From Blakeslea trispora (lineage: Eukaryota; Mucoromycota; Mucoromycetes; Mucorales; Choanephoraceae): DNA of 64,000 bases. Below are positions 2,109 to 53,340 of the stretch, piece after piece. The notes below the pieces were generated by a model. The model was not told the DNA's origin, made no database searches, and worked only from the letters and a program-made list of their open reading frames with translations. The stretch lies in NCBI GenBank assembly GCA_025331445.1, contig JAIWNE010000127.1, positions 30,513 to 94,512 of the forward strand, read 5' to 3'. The translations under genes and the position numbers were made by a program. Numbering within the stretch: position 1 is the stretch's first letter; the number at the start of each line of letters is the position of its first letter.

Positions 2109-5049
2109 CACTACACATAAAGGGTCGTCGCGCGCACGCCAATTTCTGCGGATAACTTGACTGTAACGCACGTTCCAGGCATGACGCGCGCAAAGCGTAG
2201 GCGTCATGTGTTTTGGCATTGTGACGACACAGCGAAACACTGTCATGTGTCAACGCATTGGAAGACAGGGCGGAGCAACGTCTTGTGTTTTCGCATCAGA
2301 ATTTGAGTGAACCTCTTTGTCTTTCGCTTCTATTAAAGAAACCTGATTGGATTGTTTACTCTTGACATCCTCATTCAATTGGCTTTTTTGACGATATATA
2401 CAATCATTAATTCGTTTTAATTGGCTTCATACTCGGTATTTTTATTGAATGTATGCTTTTAATTGGACAAAATGGGCTTCTTTACGTCAATACACTTCTT
2501 TATGATTGGGTTATATAGGTCAAATATAGAGGATTATAGGTCTAAAAATAGAGCTTTTTATCATAAAAAATGGTATATAAGGGCTGAAAATAATTGCTTA
2601 TACAGGGGGAAAATATTAGGGGTTCTATAGAAATCCAGGTAGAATGACCAGGCACAAATACAGCCAAAATGGTAGGCAAAATGATGGGCAAAATACGGCC
2701 AAAAAGCAGGCGAAAGAGCAAATTCAGTTATCCCGAAATGTCAGAAAAACCTTAACAAAATGACTATTAAAATGCTAAAACAGTTAGTTATAAAGCAAGC
2801 AGAAAATAACGTCATTTACTTACTTTAAAAGTCTCAAACAGCCATCCGGAAAGTAAATGGTAATGCGCTAAAATGATAGAAGCTCAACAACAGAAAAAAG
2901 ACTATAAAAAGTGAATAAGTTAAACCGAAATGAGATAATTTAATCATTTACTTACATACTAAAGCATCATAGCATCTCAGGTTATAATCATATTCAATTA
3001 CGAGTGTCTAAGGTAACTAAATAGAACGGTTAGAGAGGTCTTGAATCATATTCGATGGCTTTACTTACTTTTATACCAAGTTTCTCAGAAAAGACAAAAT
3101 TACGTGACTAATCCTAAAAAAAAAAGATGGTAAGTAAACAGCAATATATTGTTTGTCAAATTGTACCTTAAATTATGTATCAGTCTTCATAAGCTCTAAA
3201 GATAACATGCCTACATGAAGAATAGTATTCAATAAACTGTTGCTTAAGTATGGGAAAGTACTTACATGTTTTATTTCAAAATATAAAAAAAGTAAAAGAA
3301 ATGGAAGAGAAAAGAATAAAAAAAAAGGAAAAAGTATGTCTAAATAAAATAACATATTGACAAATTTCTATTTTCGTGATAAAAAATGAATCGAAAACAA
3401 AAAAAGATCTGTAAAAATACGATCCGTAGAAAATTAGATGGACAGAGACTGAAGATAGATGATTTTTTTCTCTCATCAGTAACACAAAGAATAACTGTTC
3501 ACATTGTACTTTACATGAGACTTTGCTAATCAGCTTAATAGTGTAGATATCCATAGGCCATGTAATTCAACTTAACAGATAGTCAAGATGGTTTACTTAA
3601 ATTGCAAAAGCAAGCCATTTAAAATAGACAATGTTGACATTAAATGAGCCCTTTTTTTTAAAAAAACAGGTTTTCTGAGGTGTTATTTTTTCCCAGACAG
3701 TTTTTTTCTTTTTCCTTCTATTTTCTTTTTTTATTACTAAATGAACTTTTACTCACTACTTGTATATTTTTAACCAAGTTGATGAGCCTCAACAAACTCC
3801 CGTCATCACAACAAAGCAACGCAATGCAAGTGCGCAATCAACAATCTTACAAGAGTTTAGAAGTTTAGAGCAAAAAAACACGTAAACAAAACTAGAATGA
3901 CTTTGACTGTGTCTACAAAAAAAAAGAGCTATCGCCAGCAAACGTGTAAGATCCTCTCATTTCAGCATCACTGTTTTTCTACACCCAAGCTTTAGTTATT
4001 GCAGTACACAGTTATTGAAATCTACTGTTGAACGCTTTACAAGAGGTAAGTAATACTTTTGGTTTAAATTGTAAACGGCTCTTTATTGGAATGGACTGCA
4101 TCACGAACAGTGACCTTGAATATTTGGTTGAAGAATTGTTTTTAAGCAATAAAAAAAAAGACAACATCTTTCTTGTCAAGTTATTACTTTATTTTTATAT
4201 GTGGCAATGTTATTCTGGATGATATGTATAGAAACGAGTATAAGGGAATAGAATACGGTAAAAAGGGCTGCTAGCATAGAATAGTGTGTGATAATGACTT
4301 TGGATTTACCTTATCTATCAAATATAAAAGGGATTAGCGTCTTTGTACTGTATTTCAAAAATAAACCTTTGATACGAGTAGCTTTAACAAGATCAAGCAT
4401 AAGGATTAAATTATGTTTGTATGTTGCTTACGTCTTTATTTTGACAGCTTTTGGCTTTTCAAACTACCCATCTTTAAGCAATCGTTTAAGTTTTTTTTTA
4501 GGTGTCTCTTTTATTTTCAACCTCTTTTTTTTTATGTATTTTTTCTAGTATTTTTTTTTGAGAGTCTCTTTTTTTTAGTGCTTTAAGTTTTTTATTTCCC
4601 ATTTTTAAAAGATTTTCCCAATTAATTTGTGAGTCGCATTCTCAATTTTTAATTTCTTCATTTCCGAAAGTATTTTCCAATTTTTTTAAGCAGTGATTTT
4701 TTAAGTCTTGATATTTTTTGAAGAAAAAATGACAAGTCAATTTAAACTCCTTAGCATTAAGAAAATCAAGTTGCTTCAAAATCTTAAGCAGAGAAAAAAT
4801 CACTGCCAAAAAATTTAAAGAGCGAAATTTCTTTAAGCAGTGAAATGATAAAAGAAATGTAAATGGTAATAACTTTATGAAAATACATCCAATTTTAAAT
4901 TTGTAAAAAGTTTTGGAAGCCTAGAAAATGCATCTAAATATCTGCCAAAAAAAACAGCAACTTTCATAGTTAAAATCAAAAGTTGAAAAAATAAGGCCCA
5001 TGTTAGCCGCACGTGTCCGACGTGCGTCCGACACGGGTTAAGTGTAGTG
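2109..5049. mobile_element. CACTA-like non-autonomous element B (about 2.94 kb)
   Basis: The left end reads CACTACACATAA and the right end is the reverse complement of CACTACACTTAA, giving an imperfect 12-bp terminal inverted repeat of CACTA type. AAC lies just outside both ends (2106-2108 and 5050-5052), as a 3-bp target duplication would; its last right-hand base is shared with the first base of element C, so this is not fully independent. No transposase or other gene is visible inside. Short open frames at 3173-3554 and 4028-4548 are low-complexity and not credible. The right 490 bp match the right arm of element A. Confidence 0.5.
4557..5049 (+). repeat. Right arm of CACTA-like element B (copy 2 of a 490-bp repeat)
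   Basis: Direct-orientation partner of 1615-2104. It ends in GTGTAGTG, followed after two bases by CACTACGGG, the start of element C. Short inverted GC-rich words (ACGTGTCCGACGTGCG) precede the end. Subterminal repeats of this sort are usual in CACTA elements, where they bind transposition proteins. Confidence 0.55.
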
Positions 5050-5051
5050 AA

Positions 5052-5064
5052 CACTACGGGTAAA
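5052..5064 (+). repeat. Left terminal inverted repeat of element C
   Basis: CACTACGGGTAAA, matching 11 of 13 bases of the reverse complement of 12410-12422. It directly follows the right end of element B. Confidence 0.65.
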
Positions 5065-5105
5065 AGCTTGTCTGTTTTATATCTGAAAACCCCTGTTTGG
5101 AATAT

Positions 5106-5268
5106 TTAACCGACTTTGTCGGTTAACGACAGAAAAAGACAAAACACAGACTAATCGGTTTAAGGATTTATTAGGCCTTTAACCGACAATTTTCTCGCTG
5201 CTTAAAAATTGTCAGTTAAAGGGTGTTTTAGACTTTTAACTGACAGATAATGCATGTCGGTTAAAGGG
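5106..5268. repeat. Three subterminal hairpins, left end of element C
   Basis: Three successive inverted repeats share the word TTTAACCGACA. The first (5106-5126) has perfect 9-bp arms TTAACCGAC around a 3-base loop. The second pairs about 18 bases (5176-5193 with 5205-5222, one mismatch). The third (about 5233-5268) pairs TTTAACTGACA with TGTCGGTTAAA. The same arm recurs near the right end at 12348-12402. These are likely binding sites for element-encoded proteins; the shape is seen, the role is inferred. Confidence 0.7.
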
Positions 5269-6520
5269 CAATCCTTTGATCTTATTTGCTTTCTTGATTA
5301 AAACACCCTTGATACCATTGGCTTAAAGAGACCTCTTGTACTTCTTTCGGTCTTTATACCCCTTTACTCCCATAGGATCTCTCACGTTACATTATTACAC
5401 AATTTTTTCAATTACACTCCTTTGCTATTTGACCTTAGTTTAAAGATGTATGCTCTATTTGGCAGTTGTTACTTTTCTTTATTGGCTAGTATGCTTTCGT
5501 TACTACTCTTTTCGTACTCGGTTAAAATATATTACGGAAGGCTTTTTTTAAATTCTTTTATATAATTGGTTTATTCATAATCAGTTATTACTATATACGA
5601 TCTATCTATAGGATTTGTGTCCATATATTATTGGCTAATCCAATGCTCAATATACTGGGTCCCCCGTACTCATTTGTACCTCTTTACCTAGCCTTGGGTA
5701 TTGCAGTATTCATATTTTGTGCTTACCTTTAGAACCGTTGTTTTCAGAGCTATACGTTTATTATTCAGTCAGGGAACCAGAATAAGACAGAAGCAGTTTG
5801 TATCTCTTCTTGAGGCCATTAGACGATCTTTGTAAAAGAAAAAGAACTATAGTGAAATAAAAAGAAAGGGTTATTAGAATCAATTGCAAACGCAAATGTT
5901 AGAAATTATTTACCTTTTCATTATGATAAACATCAGCCTTCGCAGTAAGAGTCCATCAGATAGAACATCTACAAAATACATCAAATGCAAAATTAGATCG
6001 AGCTTATTCAGTTACATCTTATTTTTTTATGTTTACTTACAATTTGAGAGTATCAAAGGATTTGGGCTTTCTTTACACACACTTTAAGAAGGGCAAGGTA
6101 ACTAGTTATGACTATTAAAAGAAAAGCGTTAGCTTCGTTTCAATGAGAAGATTCTATCATTTACCTTTTTGCGAAAAGTAACAGGAACGAAAACTTGGTA
6201 CTTGCACGATAATACTATACAGTAATTCATATTAATAATTGTTTTCTTTTTTATTTTTAGTAATAGATACATACCATGAACCACTCATAAATAGTTTAAA
6301 GAAAGAACGAAAGAAAAAAGAAACTAAAAAAATTTTAATTGGTTTTTAACGATTTAAATGTTTTGTCCTGAGCCACTTGGTGTTTAAATCATGTTTCATT
6401 CAAATTCCGATTGTGTCAAATCAATTCAAATCAAAGTATCTAATGCTGACAGTATAAAAGACTTTGTGCCTGATTTCATTTTGTTGATTGTCTTTATCAT
6501 CATTTCTATACAAATCAAGC

Positions 6521-7670
6521 ATGTTTCACACTACCACTTCCAACAACACCAACACTAACGCCGTTGCTGTTCCCATTCCTGTACCTAACGCTGTTAGCAT
6601 CAGCGGTACTGTCTCTACTCCTCGTCAGAACAACACGGCCATCAACAGAGAAGTACAAGAGTTGAAGCGAGCCCTTGCTAACACCAATCAGCAGCTTCAA
6701 AGTGTCGAGGCCAAGAACAACCTGCTATCTCGCCAGCTGAATGACTTGAATGCAAAATTTACTACCAATTCGACTAGCACTAATACCAAGTTTCGATTCC
6801 CTGGCACCAAAGACGATTTAAAGATACTCCGTGTTAGTGCTATTCATAATCTATTCTTTCGGCTTTACTCATCGTTTCTATTTAGTGTCTTATAATCGAT
6901 ATTGAAAGAGAACAGCTCGGCGAAAATGGCTGGAGACTAGATGAGACACTAATCAATGGTCCTTACAATGGACAAAAAGTGAAGACAATCATCAGCAATT
7001 TTGAGGTACATCACACGTACTTTATTATTCTTCGTGATAAAGTCTGGAGCTCTACAGACAGAGCAAACTTTGTCAAGTATGTCCTTGGCAAACGCTTCAA
7101 CAGCCTTCGTGACGAAAAAAAGAAGAAGGATTTGCCAGAAGAAGCTAGAGAAGAAATCCAAAGAAAGAATAGTTATGCGACTCGCAAATCACAAGTAAGA
7201 TATTTTGATTACAAGTTCTCATGTTTCGCAATCGCTAACAACAATATTTCGATAAATAGATCTTGAAAAGAAGAAGAAACACGTACAGCAATTTCAAGCA
7301 TCGCCTTCAAAGTTACTATGGAACGGATGCTGAGTGCACTTCAGTACTCGTTCCAGATATGATTTCAGACCAAGAGGATGAGTTAGATGCTGACGGTGAA
7401 GAAGTAAGACTAAGAAAGACTCCAAAATACAGAACAGAAAAGGTTAGTAGACTACAGCAAACTATTGTGAATATAATAACTAATTTGCTTAAATAGTGTG
7501 ACGAGTTTTTTGATGAGTTGGATGCAATTCGCAACGCCAACACAAAAGCCAGAAACCGTCGATTCATACCCACCAAGATTGGTTCAAGAATTCGGAAGGA
7601 ATCACACACCATTACTTCTGAAACACTTGCTGCTTTGCCAACATGGGCGATTGATAGTAATTCTGTTTGA
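6521..7670 (+). CDS. Element C protein 1: coiled-coil/basic four-exon protein
   Basis: Function unknown. It starts at ATG 6521. Exons 6521-6832, 6886-7194, 7260-7442 and 7497-7670 are separated by 53-65 nt introns with donors GTTAGT, GTAAGA and GTTAGT and TAG acceptors. All join in frame to give 325 residues with no disruption. The N-terminus is Thr/Asn/Val-rich, then residues about 45-85 form a Leu/Gln/Asn-rich heptad-like coiled coil. The middle is Lys/Arg-rich with clusters such as DEKKKKD and KRRRN; an acidic patch (DQEDELDADGEE) follows. The gene lies in a CACTA element beside a Tnp2 transposase and converges on the 247-residue ORF, 57 bp from stop to stop. It may be a TnpA-like DNA-binding accessory factor that recognises the terminal hairpins, but this is inferred from position and charge only. 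AATAAA near 7689 could serve as a poly(A) signal. Confidence 0.75.
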
Positions 7671-7727
7671 GCCTTTTCTTAAATCTGTTGTAATAAATAC
7701 TTTGTAAAAAAAATCATCCTTTGTTTG

Positions 7728-8471
7728 TTACATAATTTTATTTGGTAAATCAACAACGACAGTGATATCTGTGAAAGGTGTATTCAACATGTGAACTAGT
7801 GAATTCATTTTTTGTACTGGTAGAATTGAATAGGAACTAACATTTTCGTATTCACACCGAAAAGGACGCATATAAGGTCCAGTGTACTGAGATAAATCTT
7901 CTTTACCGGTACGAGGATTCTTGAACCAGTGGACAAAAGCAAAGTAGTGGTTCAAGTAGCATGTTTTGCCATTGCTATCAGCAAACTGTGCCTGATGACA
8001 AAAAAAGTAATCGACTGATCCAGCACGGAGATGCTCGGTAGTGTCTGTTATATTGACACCTTCCAAATCATCGTTTTTGAAATCATCCTGGCGAAAGGCA
8101 TTGAAATCGATGCCAACATTGCTTCCTGTTAGTCTAGAACTGTAAGTGGATCCAAGCACATCAATCTTTTTGAATTTTTTGACATTGTTGATAACGACAA
8201 TCGGTGTACTGTATTGTCTTCCGTAATATTCAACCAAACATTGAAAGTGTTCTGGTTTCAAGTGCTTAGGAGCCCCTCGGGCCCAAGTGAGAGGCACTCT
8301 ACCGTCCCTGGTCATGGATTCAAAGCCCATAGGATTTCCACCTTTTTGTGAGTACTTGATCATGTCACCTAATGAATAAGGAATACCAGGTTCTATGATA
8401 CCCTGATCTTGCAACAAATCCTCACTTGTTTGAATGATATTGTTGTTGTTGTTTTCTGTAGTTTGGTTCAT
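7728..8471 (-). CDS. Element C protein 2: possible detached Tnp2 C-terminal module
   Basis: An uninterrupted single-exon ORF of 247 residues. I place the start at ATG 8471 (MNQTTENNNN); an upstream in-frame ATG at 8522 would add 17 hydrophobic residues. The N-terminus is Asn/Thr-rich, and the body holds aromatic-rich segments including CYLNHYFAFVHWFK and a tail ending TVVVDLPNKIM. The pattern of a phenylalanine-rich strand, an acidic middle and a final ILPVQKMNSLV-like segment resembles the C-terminal domain fused to other Tnp2 transposases, such as the last exon of the relic at 55910-58927. I infer a split-off Tnp2 module rather than an unrelated gene; similarity at this level needs a profile search. 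It converges on protein 1. Confidence 0.65.
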   Translation of the reverse strand: MNQTTENNNNNIIQTSEDLLQDQGIIEPGIPYSLGDMIKYSQKGGNPMGFESMTRDGRVPLTWARGAPKHLKPEHFQCLVEYYGRQYSTPIVVINNVKKFKKIDVLGSTYSSRLTGSNVGIDFNAFRQDDFKNDDLEGVNITDTTEHLRAGSVDYFFCHQAQFADSNGKTCYLNHYFAFVHWFKNPRTGKEDLSQYTGPYMRPFRCEYENVSSYSILPVQKMNSLVHMLNTPFTDITVVVDLPNKIM

Positions 8472-8558
8472 TTCGTAGTTGTTTGATATATATGAAAGAC
8501 AAGTATTTCTAATAAAAAACAAATGAATATGATTGATGCTCTAAATGTCTTGATTTAG

Positions 8559-8706
8559 TTGGATACTATCAATTGATTATCAGCATGGTGACACAACCCT
8601 CTTTTGGCACTACCATTCGAAAAACTACAAAACTTTAACTGATGCGATTGAGATAGGACTGAAAGCTATTGGTAGATTTCCAGATCTCACAGTTATTGGT
8701 GTATAA
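8559..8706 (+). CDS. Orphan coding-like exon inside element C
   Basis: An open frame of about 48 codons begins after a possible acceptor (GATTTAG ending at 8558) and ends at TAA 8704-8706. It reads as coding rather than random sequence (segments DYQHGDTTLFWHYHS and GLKAIGRFPDLTVIG). No in-frame ATG or upstream exon could be joined to it, because protein 2 starts only about 90 bp away on the other strand. It could be the last exon of a lost fourth gene or a captured fragment. I do not recognise the family. Confidence 0.25.
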
Positions 8707-9082
8707 CATTATGCCAACACTGTTACGTTACAGGCAAAAGACAATTTTAACAAACAAAATATAAACCAAAAATGGTAAGAACGTATCACGCTCTGTTTAA
8801 ATTTGGAGCAGAAGTTTAGTTTTAGTCTAGTTTCTTTTGATTTTTTTGGTTTCTTTTTTTATGTATTAGCTTTTCTTTAATGTTGCATCTTCAATAGGCA
8901 TGACAAACCATAAACTACGCGTAGTAAATCAACCATAAACTTGGTATGCATAGGCAGTAGAAAATAAACGTGATAATAATGTAAGCAAATATGTTAAGTT
9001 TTTTTGTTTCTATTCTAAAATTTTTTTAATGATATTGATAAGTATATGTAGATCGATAATAACAATAAAAAAAAAGAAGCAA

Positions 9083-11589
9083 TTAGGAGAGTTCATCTAA
9101 GGAGGTGATGCCAGCATCGTTAGAGAAGATTATTGCTTGCATTTTACGCATGTATGTTTTCTCGAAACCATGCTTGTGATTTGTTTTTACATTTTTAAGA
9201 AAGAGGTTGTTTCTTTCGAAGTTAAACGCCCAAAAGCAAGAGACTGGACCCCATTTGCGCATGCAATCGCGGAGATGCAGCATAAAATGAAAATTGGGCG
9301 GAACAGATTCAGAGCCGTAGGCTTGTTCATATTTTTGGCAAAGTTTAAGAGATGAGTGTGAACTACATCAATATCAGCAATTTTTATAACACCAGAATCT
9401 AGGATTCGGAGAGCATGGATCAACTCCATCATGTGCATGTAAACAGAGGCATCAAGAGCGGGAGGACAAAGGAGAGCATGGGCCTTAGAGGTCATGAAAT
9501 CTTTAAATTCGACTGCTTTGACATATGAGAACCCAGTTTTAGTAATTTTTTTTTCGACATAGGATTGCCAGGAGCTTGGGGATTAAAATCCATATGATAT
9601 TGCATGATTTGTTGAACCTTCAGATAAGCATCTTCCGGCATCATTTTAATCAGAGAAGTTTTGGCAGCACCCAAGTATAGAACGTGCATAGGCTCAATAG
9701 CTAACAGGTCGTAGGAGAAGTAAGGCAACTTGAAAAGCACCGAAAAACGAACACCACTTGCTTGCTCTAACTCCTTTCTTTTCTTTGCTGTGTCAGCCTT
9801 CTTCCAAGCACGAGAGCTAGCCCTTGTTTCCTCATTGGTTCTTCTTCTCCAAGTGTTACAATTCCGGTTGCAATAGTTTCTTTGGTTGCCAGGTTCTGCA
9901 AAACGAGGAAACTGCGTATGGCACAAGTGACAACCAAAATTACTATTGAAGGACGTACTACTTGCTAGTTTTTTTGTTGCTGGAAGATCCGAGCAGATTG
10001 TAGCCAGGCACGCCCTTACGTTGTTCTTAACAACCGAGCCATCTTTCATTACTATCGTCATCTCCACACCATGCAACAACACGAGCAACTCATCCACCAA
10101 TGGCTTCAGGTAATGATTGAATGCAGTGGTTGGAGGTTCTTGAGGACCAGGGATGACTCCCACGAGTACCATATTCTTCTTGAGGTCACGGCCGTCGGCT
10201 TTAGGTAAGTTCTGTATAGTGAGGTATATACACCCTACACTATAATGGGCACTAAATGGACCAAACCAGTCAACGTTCAGAGTGAGGAGCAGGTTGTAGT
10301 CACCGAGGAAAGCAAAAGGAAGAGGATCGTTTGGAAGTGCCTTGAACTCAGCGAAACCGGTACCATCGTAAATGTCAAGCATGTAGCCAGGAACAGTCTC
10401 ACGTCTTCTCCATTCGTTGATCTGGTCAGCAAAACCTTGGCGCAGAAAGAATTTTTTGAGTGTGGAAATGATTGAGCAGTATGGATACTCTTTTTGAGGC
10501 ACAAGTATTGCAACCTCTCTCGTGTAATCGTAGTCATACACTTTGCCTGTACAGTATCTTCCAGACTTATTTGGCTTGAATACTGCATTTTGTAAGTCTT
10601 GATTGCAAACAATATCCTCGCCTCCAGGCTGGTTCTTTTGTTCGTAGAGATGGTGACAGCTGGTACAAACATTATAGTACTTAATACCATCATTACTCAG
10701 TTTGAAAAGCTGGCTTCTTTTCAAGAACGTTGCCAATGTTCTTGGAAAGCGGAATACATCGTTTTGGATTTCCAACAGACGGTTAAGATCTTCCATGTAC
10801 TTTTCGATCTGGTGGCGAGGAGTGCTGTTGTTAAACATGTCAGTAACCAGCCGAAAGAGGATCTTAGAAGAAGGGCTTCGAGGAAGTTTATCAGCTAAGT
10901 TGAGAAAAGATACGAGTTGGTATAAGACTACTTGTACTAAAACAGCTGTTATAGAACTACTTACATAGAAGATCAGATTCAGAAGGTGTAGCAGACTCAG
11001 GCTCAGGCTCAGGCACAGTAGAAGCATTGACAGGTTCTTTAACTTCATCGATTTGCATTGGATCTATTGAAAATAATTTTGTCAGTTCTTTCTCTTTATG
11101 CAGACATCACAGTTTAACAAATTTACCAGAGTTTGATGGTTGTTCAGCCAACTCAGTTGTTGGATGTGATATTTGTCGATTGGTAACAGTAGGAACTGAA
11201 CGAGAAATAATATAGGCCTTTTATTAGGTGAAGAGAAAAAGTGTTAGACACGATAAAAAACTCTTCTTAATAGAATCTGTGTTTGTAAATTGTAATTCAG
11301 ATGTGGTAAATACCACATTGGATTAAGGAAATGAGGAGTACGTCTGTTGATTGAGTTCTCTGTGGATTGAGAGGTAAAGAATAAGAATTAAATGTGAATG
11401 GGCTAGATCAGAGATAGATCACTTACTATTGATTTCAAGCCATTGTTGATAGGGCATCTTGTCATACTTGTTGTGAATTTTATGAGAACGATGGGTAGAA
11501 GGCTTGATAAACTTGGCCTCTTCAGGTCTGTGTTTGCAGATGTCACAAAAACAGTAGATCAAAGTGTTTCCAGTTGGCATAGAAGGCAT
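9083..11589 (-). CDS. Tnp2-type (CACTA/EnSpm) transposase, two frame breaks
   Basis: Transposase of element C. Start ATG 11589; exons 11589-11427, 11195-11127, 11063-10965 and 10894-9083, with GTAAGT/GTAAAT donors, all joining in phase. Exon 1 carries a CFCDICKHR zinc-finger-like motif; exon 3 has Pro-Glu repeats. Exon 4 holds the Tnp2 core: a cysteine pair CTSCHHLYE, DIYDGTGFAEFKAL, LNVDWFGPFSAHYSVG, CSDLPATKKLASSTSFNS followed by CHLCHTQFPRF, the LPYFSYDLLAIEPMHVLYLG motif typical of the family, and finally the HLRDCMRKWGPVSCFWAFNF segment. The frame breaks twice, each explained by one missing A in a run (plus-strand T9 at 9546-9554 and T5 at 9332-9336). These may be real decay or sequencing error; otherwise the gene looks nearly intact. 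Protein 2 may supply the missing C-terminal part. Confidence 0.8.
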
Positions 11590-12347
11590 TTTAAGGTAAA
11601 TCAAATAGAAAGTGAGATGGATAGTAGTTTTATTTTATTTTTCTGCTTGTATTTTATATCTTTTTCTTTTGTTTGAACTGCCACCACTTTGTTACTAATC
11701 AAAAGGATTGCACAGAATTTCATTTGTTCCTTGAATGTAGACAAATCAAAAGTCTTTTTGCTTAGAATTCATTGATCGGAAGCATTGTTTTTGGCTAATG
11801 AATATTCTTCTTCAATGTTTGGTTCCTTTCTGTCAACAATTATTAAAGCAAGACATATTCCAAAGCTTGACATCCGTCGATACTGCTTGATTTTTTATTC
11901 AGTTAAATATGCATATCAACACTTCCGAAACTATACCAGTAATTTGTAAGCTGTTCTAATCATTCCTTCTGCTCTTATTTTAGACATAATGCCTTCCTAA
12001 TTTGTCATGAATCAAGAATATTGTTGAAGCTCAGCTGCGCGCTGTTTAGATCAGAATGCGAAGCGATTTAGAAAATTAAATGCCTTTTTATTGGTTAAAA
12101 GTATCAACATCTTTTTTAAAAAAAATTTAAAGTGGTCACAATAAAAAAACTGGATTTTGTTAAAAATGGCGGTTCTTAAATTAGAGTCGAAAAATGTTCA
12201 AATTGAATGCTTCTAAACGCATAGAAAATGATAGTAAAAACAACAATCTTCTTACATATTTACATTCAATATAGTTACAGACATTACTGCGTCAAATTTC
12301 GTTCAATTTTGACCATTTTTCATAAAAATACATTTTACTGCTTAAAA

Positions 12348-12402
12348 TGACCCCTTTAACCGACATAAAACCGACAAAAAATTTAGTCGGTTAAAGGGGT
12401 CA
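12348..12402. repeat. Subterminal hairpin, right end of element C
   Basis: Perfect 17-bp arms: TGACCCCTTTAACCGAC at 12348-12364 and its reverse complement at 12386-12402. The word matches the three hairpins near the left end (5106-5268). A further ACCGACA sits in the loop. Confidence 0.75.
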
Positions 12403-12409
12403 AATTTCA

Positions 12410-12422
12410 TTTCCCTGTAGTG
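12410..12422 (-). repeat. Right terminal inverted repeat of element C
   Basis: TTTCCCTGTAGTG, inverted partner of 5052-5064 with two mismatches. It is followed by TTCGAAC, with no match to the left flank that would make a clear target duplication. Confidence 0.6.
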
Positions 12423-12838: not shown

Positions 12839-12911
12839 GGGGCTATGGCCCAATGGATAAGGCGTCTGACTACGAATCAGGAGATTCCAGGTTCGACCCC
12901 TGGTAGCCTCA
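12839..12911 (+). tRNA. tRNA-Arg (anticodon ACG)
   Basis: A 73-nt cloverleaf without intron. The acceptor GGGGCTA pairs with TAGCCTC with one G-T wobble; the discriminator is A. The anticodon stem TCTGA/TCAGG closes the loop CTACGAA, giving anticodon ACG (read as ICG, arginine). The T arm is CCAGG, TTCGACC, CCTGG. A run of T follows at 12913-12917, a usual RNA polymerase III terminator. CCA is not encoded, as expected for a nuclear eukaryotic tRNA. This is the one confidently host gene in the window. Confidence 0.95.
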
Positions 12912-51749: not shown

Positions 51750-51855
51750 GAGTAGATTCGTTATATCGATATTTTTTGCTTGTTCTATTCATCAGTAAAA
51801 TTAACATTTCGATTTATATAAAGATCTTTCATACAATTATCCTCGCAACATCAAC

Positions 51856-53340
51856 TTGCCTACCACACTAAACGTTTCACTTTTGTTTGCTATGGTTGTT
51901 TTGTTGCGCGAGAATCAATTGAACGACGTTTCATGTGAGACACTTATACTTTTCTCTAACATGGCTCTTTGTTTGACTGAGGAAAAGTATCCCATCCCTA
52001 AGTCTGTTGTTACCTTTGACATTTGGTGTCAATCTGCACGCCCTTTTGATTTTTGCGTGAAGGAGAATGCTAGTTGCGCTACTTGCAATGCCATTTACCC
52101 ATACAGTACCGAAAAAGAGCGAGCAATTGTTCAATAAAAAGTATCATGCTTTGATAAAGGCATTTTTCTGGGCTCGTCTTTTGGAGCGCAACCAATACGG
52201 CACACTCGGTCCTCTTAGAACTTTTTCGTACAACTCTTTGGTTGAGACGCTTAAGATGTTTTTCATGCGTGATAGATTCCCAAACGAAATTAGTTTTGGG
52301 AAGGCACGTCAAGTCTTGTCTGGAATGCCTTTTGACATTTACGACGGTCAGGTCTGGAACGAGTTTATGATCGATAGTACTGAAAATCAACCTTTTGTCT
52401 TCCAAAGCGACTTTAATTTGTTGCTTACATTGAACTACGACTGGTTTCAAGCCTATAAGGATTCTTACAGTGTTGGCGCCATTTGTCTTACTATTCAAAA
52501 CTTGCCCCGTGAGATAAGAAACTTTCGAAGTAACGTCATTCTGGTTTTTCTTATCAATGGCCTTAAAGAACCTAAGACGTTCGAAATGAATCATTACCTG
52601 CGTCCCTTGGTCAAGGAGTTAAAACAGTTGATGAATGGTGTTGAAATGGAGACCAAGACTAAAGGAAAGCAATTAGTCAAGGCGGCACTTTCTTTGTGTA
52701 TAATGGATTTGCCTGCTCAACGCAAAGTGGCTGGTTTTACGTCGTTCAACTCGATCAATGCCTGCTTAAAATTTAAGAAGCAATTTGACCCCATTGTGAC
52801 AGGTGACAAGGCTCGGGACTTCAGTGAGTTTAACATTGAAAGCCAAGTCAGAAGAACGTGTAGTGAGCACAAAAGACAAGCGCAAGATTGGCTGCGAACA
52901 AAAACTGAAAGTGCTTGCAAAGAAAAAGAAAGGCAAAACAGTACCCGTTAGAATGTTCTCTTGGACTTGCCGTATTTTGATCCAATCCGCCATGTCGGTA
53001 TTGACTTGATGCACAATCTGCTTCTTAAACTCACAAAGAAAATGGGAAGTATATGGACAAGCATTTTTGCCACATCCAGTAGAAGATCGTTGCCCAAACT
53101 CACACCCGTCCATCTGAAGGAAATGCAAGTGATTTTGGAGAGCAAGTTCATTCTTCTTCCTAGTCACGCTGTATCGTCCATTGCAAGAAAGATTACCATC
53201 GACAACGGGTTTTTAACTTTAAGGCAGACAAGTTGGCTACCTGGTTGTTGATGTAGTCGCCATACCTCCTCCCCAGCGTCTTGAAAAGAAGCTTTACGAA
53301 CATTAGATGCTTTTACTCAAGGCTTGAAGAATTCCCCACT
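51856..53340 (+). pseudogene. Tnp2-type transposase relic 2
   Basis: Related to the element C transposase. Pieces in order: a cysteine pair ENASCATCNAIYPYS, a frame change near 52130, then DIYDGQVWNEF, LLTLNYDWFQAYKDSYSVG, FEMNHYLRPLVKEL, CIMDLPAQRKVAGFTSFNS, and after another frame change near 52955 the signature LDLPYFDPIRHVGIDLMHNL. A last piece (DKLATWLLM) precedes a stop near 53255. The second cysteine of the usual C-x-x-C before FKKQF is lost. Introns were not assigned. It ends close to the GCCCA-rich stretch at 53418, which may mark a later insertion. It is non-functional. Confidence 0.75.

Follow-up and report, generated by a model that had tools for sequence, protein, structure and literature searches.

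A CACTA transposon of Blakeslea trispora with a probably split Tnp2 transposase and an accessory gene

The carotene producer Blakeslea trispora is a mould of the Mucorales (Choanephoraceae), and the genome analysed here comprises 37.2 Mb in 285 contigs. A 64-kb stretch of it, hereafter the window, contains at 5052..12422 a CACTA-type element that encloses a Tnp2 transposase, a separate gene of 247 codons and, on the opposite strand, a four-exon accessory gene. Two questions are raised by this locus: whether the three genes belong to one transposon or came together by accident, and whether the 247-codon gene is a part of the transposase that has become a gene of its own. We consider it likely that the element is a Mucorales member of the CACTA (EnSpm) class in which Tnp2 was split, ancestrally to its clade, into a catalytic protein and a free C-terminal protein, and which carries in addition a TNPA-like accessory gene.

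Boundaries of the element and recurrence of its layout

The complete element starts with CACTACGGG at 5052 and finishes with CCCTGTAGTG at 12422; the window sequence, together with a motif and hairpin search, upheld a first-pass annotation that had placed CACTAC ends with matching hairpins at these positions. The left terminal inverted repeat (5052..5060, plus strand) starts at the identical base in 14 of 15 other left ends in the genome, the exception (C132) having differing first bases. The right terminal inverted repeat (12413..12422, minus strand) stops at the identical base in nine of 11 other right ends, C78 and C79 being without the terminal piece there. The end sequences thus coincide with the boundaries of other copies, as that annotation required, and in the other copies inspected the divergence of the flanks sets in exactly at the end bases; some copies have flanks in common and the remaining copies have unrelated flanks. 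Two copies, L071 and L072, align to the window copy over its full length with 94-98% identity, except for ~158 bp near 11160-11320 (11160..11320, inside the Tnp2 region), which are present in the window copy only, are missing from L069-L072 and have a 6-bp direct repeat at their borders. L069 and L070 are partial copies, without the right part and the left end, respectively.

Both termini carry repeats. On the left (5105..5268) there are six repeats of the TTAACYGAC type, oriented both ways, and on the right (12348..12402) there is a hairpin with 17-nt arms containing TTAACCGAC. The motif or its complement occurs eight times in the window, always within the termini of the element (six left, two right), and these repeats form hairpins. 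The matching hairpins of the first-pass annotation are thus subterminal repeats, a known feature of CACTA elements (available text of PMC8978399). The element combines CACTA termini, subterminal repeats in two orientations, a Transposase_21 (tnp2) domain and a second encoded protein, which are among the features by which CACTA (EnSpm) transposons are recognised.

Genome matches were merged into clusters, at least 148 for Tnp2, at least 113 for the 247-residue module and at least 71 for the accessory gene; all cluster counts given here are rough, hold among the matches listed, and may include duplicate contigs with common flanks (C99/C175, C180/C38 and C246/C75). A same-strand Tnp2 lies upstream of 60 of the 113 module clusters, at 1185-1628 bp in 58 cases, and an opposite-strand accessory gene lies downstream of 65 of the 113. 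Both partners, in identical order, accompany 43 module clusters; 31 have neither, and a same-strand accessory gene within 4 kb was seen at a single module cluster. Seen from the accessory gene, 65 of 71 clusters adjoin a module in convergent orientation and six do not, so the genes, which had been proposed to form one system, are not independent. No module match accompanied 88 Tnp2 clusters, and in one group, at 38-40% module identity, Tnp2 and module were found and the accessory gene was not detected. Module clusters without an accessory gene include C217, C21, C169, C50 and others. Several three-gene subfamilies exist side by side in this one genome.

Chance nested insertions at one place could also have joined the three genes, and two features of the window copy fit such an origin: it has no matching target-site duplication (GAA on the left, TTC on the right), and 2 bp separate its left end from a neighbouring CACTA end. 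Three further copies also have no matching duplication (C99, GAC/AAC; C196, GTT/GTC; C240, GTC/ACG), making four of the seven copies read at both ends. The other three, however, have exact 3-bp duplications (C42, CGG; C71, AGT; C38, GTT), L071 and L072 match the window copy, save for the 158 bp, within different flanks, and the gene order is repeated in the 43 clusters, many of them diverged. Chance assembly is contradicted by this recurrence, and we regard it as extremely improbable. Distantly related copies repeat the three-gene layout, so this is a genuine variant within an already known class of transposons.

The transposase and its C-terminal module

The main part of Tnp2 (9083..11063, minus strand) was identified by copy comparison and by a match to PF02992 (Transposase_21; E = 1.7e-10, 40.9 bits, cut-off 28.6); it ends at 9083 without a C-terminal module. 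A putative cysteine-rich first exon, with inferred splice sites, lies at 11427..11589 (minus strand), and a similar start is found in the divergent copy L073. The 247-codon gene (7728..8471, minus strand) is an open frame. It has no Pfam match, but a profile built from 29 module sequences and run on 120 Tnp2 relatives matched 16 of them, all at E < 1e-3 and with the best stretch always C-terminal. The top match, to P0020 (E = 2.2e-17), spans residues 652-867 of 869. These matches show homology between the 247-residue protein and the C-terminal part of ordinary Tnp2. The first-pass annotation had suggested that this frame was a detached C-terminal module of the transposase, and it is backed by the profile matches, by a fixed stop position and by the transposase tree.

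The stop position is defined relative to the motif FERxN. In eight transposases (L069, P0011-P0015, P0018 and P0019), as little as 38% identical, the stop follows FERxN by 43-46 residues; in the 32 transposases called fused, 224-300 residues lie beyond it. Judged from these sequences, the catalytic protein stops soon after FERxN, and the stand-alone protein of ~240-260 residues corresponds to the C-terminal domain of fused Tnp2. A tree was built from 40 of the 121 sequences in the alignment; it unites the eight split transposases in one clade (support 100/99) adjoining the fused pair P0020 and P0021, and all others in it are fused. Given the monophyly of the split forms, and provided that the root lies outside their clade, the tree points to a single fission as the origin of the split.

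An alternative is that Tnp2 and the 247-codon frame are a single gene interrupted by an intron, which would make the split only apparent and the element an ordinary two-gene CACTA transposon. The two frames do lie in tandem on the same strand, ~0.4-0.6 kb apart, and fused relatives exist. An intron is nevertheless improbable, because it would not keep the stop at its place after FERxN in sequences as diverged as these eight. Also at odds with a single gene are the ten stand-alone homologues of the module, among them annotated genes of Choanephora and three Blakeslea trispora proteins: module homologues start with ATG and are of much the same length, and the Blakeslea and Choanephora annotations treat them as separate genes. 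The signal AATAAA, moreover, lies 66-69 nt beyond the Tnp2 stop in three copies (L069, L071 and the divergent L073); it is absent at that place in the window copy. We therefore consider the one-gene explanation quite unlikely. The best eight PF02992 loci (L001-L008) all had a same-strand module match when the profile included fused C-termini, and six of the eight did so at E < 0.01 with a module-only profile; only in L001 do Tnp2 and module share one open frame, the module of the others being in a separate frame.

The detached module is under purifying selection, with a ratio of nonsynonymous to synonymous substitution rates (dN/dS) of 0.10-0.15 in four comparisons. In a fold comparison its predicted structure was closest to BAH domains (those of DNMT1, BAHCC1, EBS and others), and this predicted likeness suggests that the module possibly serves as a tether to chromatin or to the target. 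The Pfam BAH profile matched neither the module nor any of two homologues and eight fused Tnp2 proteins, at E values up to 1 in one search and up to 10 in another.

Apart from the missing target-site duplication, two points weigh against a split, three-gene transposon as we describe it. The three genes claimed at the outset are all present, but Tnp2 is not intact: its main frame is broken in the window copy near 9550 and near 9350, and in L069 it is a single open frame of 612 codons. With this frame interrupted twice, Tnp2 is probably defective and the window copy probably no longer autonomous; its module and accessory frames remain open. The second point concerns a fused equivalent of the module, said to be present in a Tnp2 relic of the same window, numbered 3. 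In the Tnp2 relic near 52 kb no fused module was found by searching window open reading frames of at least 60 codons and pieces of at least 25 codons in the 50-58 kb interval. A broken Tnp2 relic does lie at 51805-53251 (plus strand), and the C-terminal module was not found there.

The accessory gene and a proposed mechanism

The description of the accessory gene as an unbroken gene of four exons proved correct, and its 325 codons are open. All four exons are on the plus strand: exon 1 (6521..6832), which may form a coiled coil; exon 2 (6886..7194), which encodes a helical core of 103 residues; exon 3 (7260..7442); and exon 4 (7497..7670), which contains the stop. Exons 1, 3 and 4 are open frames with homologous counterparts in copies such as L073. 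Exon 2 aligned without gaps in all 11 copies compared, at 28-98% identity, and AG and GT are kept at its two borders in all 11; its core was modelled with a predicted local distance difference test score (pLDDT) of 85. The dN/dS of exon 2 was 0.12-0.16 at a synonymous divergence (dS) of ~0.85 (against L025, L031 and L032), and a comparison of L061 with L065 gave 0.52. The accessory gene is under purifying selection.

Compared with Pfam, the accessory protein matched no family above the cut-off, TNPA-like and known DNA-binding families included, and a database search found no relative. According to the authors who described SmTRC1, proteins of the TNPA/TNP1 type are not detectably conserved, and in maize Spm both TNPA and TNPD are essential and interact (available text of PMC1636069). 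By analogy, the accessory protein most likely does the work that TNPA does in plants, binding the TTAACYGAC-type repeats and joining the ends. It could instead have some other role, such as repression of the element or the countering of host silencing, and the lack of a match to any known DNA-binding family would agree with that, as would the group that has Tnp2 and module without a detectable accessory gene. On the other side stand the presence of the accessory gene beside a module in 65 of its 71 clusters, the purifying selection upon it, a basic stretch with a net charge of +12 over residues 168-228 (picked by eye), and the long subterminal repeat arrays, which need a binder. A role other than end binding is possible, if rather unlikely.

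For a TNPA-like accessory protein, transposition would proceed by analogy with Spm: the protein would coat both subterminal arrays and bridge the ends of the element; Tnp2, once recruited, would make its cuts at CACTA; and the free C-terminal protein would work in trans, as a subunit. The joint conservation of the parts suggests that all three proteins are required.

Abutting termini and comparison with known elements

On its left side the window copy is two bases away from another CACTA-type terminus, which extends up to 5049, giving the junction GTAGTG AA CACTAC. Junction sites occur in the window at 5044-5057 and 2099-2114, and the terminus to the left of the window copy also flanks C19 and C196, there with the spacer TT rather than AA. 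In all, GTAGTG was found 2-4 bp outside eight of 16 left ends (the window copy included) and CACTAC at 2 bp outside four of ten intact right ends, corresponding to about four left and three right junctions when common flanks are counted once. Throughout the genome the pattern GTAGTGN{1,4}CACTAC occurs 93 times, as compared to ten for a reversed control, and spacers of 0 and 5-12 bp combined occur nine times, as compared to 23; copying of a few junctions may inflate the count of 93. Among the 50 sites listed, spacers of 1, 2, 3 and 4 bp number 5, 14, 16 and 15. At C38 the neighbour's terminus contributes its final base to the duplication GTT, which suggests that abutting termini arose when an element inserted into the target duplication of one already resident. 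A literature search recognised no description of CACTA elements abutting end to end. The fuller proposal, in which a free BAH-like Tnp2 C-terminal subunit and an end-binding accessory protein occur in a group that inserts at resident CACTA termini, leaving elements end to end 1-4 bp apart, is one we hold to be unlikely as a whole. The sole tRNA gene found in the window, tRNA-Arg (ACG) at 12839-12911 (plus strand), lies 417 bp beyond the right end.

The element shares with plant CACTA/En-Spm transposons, maize Spm with its TNPD and TNPA among them, the CACTA ends, subterminal repeats, Transposase_21, second protein and, in three of the seven copies read at both ends, exact 3-bp duplications (available text of PMC8978399 and PMC1636069 for the plant elements). 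The Spm proteins, however, derive from one alternatively spliced unit (available text of PMC1636069), whereas here the accessory gene is a separate gene on the opposite strand, without TNPA similarity by Pfam, and a distinct gene encodes the Tnp2 C-terminus. Fused Tnp2 proteins of animals, fungi and other contigs (such as P0020, and P0036 of Ptychodera) have homologous catalytic and C-terminal parts, but within the same protein, and lie outside the split clade. Fungal CACTA-like elements, including a Rhizopus oryzae sequence, share the presence of Transposase_21 in a Mucorales genome; a split module and an accessory gene are not mentioned in the available text of that source (PMC1636069). The first-pass annotation knew of no description of the three-gene arrangement. 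CACTA elements that encode a second protein besides the transposase are already known. No description of a Tnp2 split so as to leave its C-terminal protein free was found in the literature covered, which did not include the main fungal survey.

The last third of Tnp2 is hard to study while it is fused to the transposase. The fission of Tnp2 is a natural experiment on the role of that part, and a module that is free can be produced, mutated or exchanged by itself. The conserved accessory gene provides a fungal test case for whether a TNPA-like binder of the ends is indispensable in every case of CACTA transposition. Should targeting lie behind the packing of termini, such a choice of insertion sites would be out of the ordinary for a cut-and-paste element of eukaryotes.
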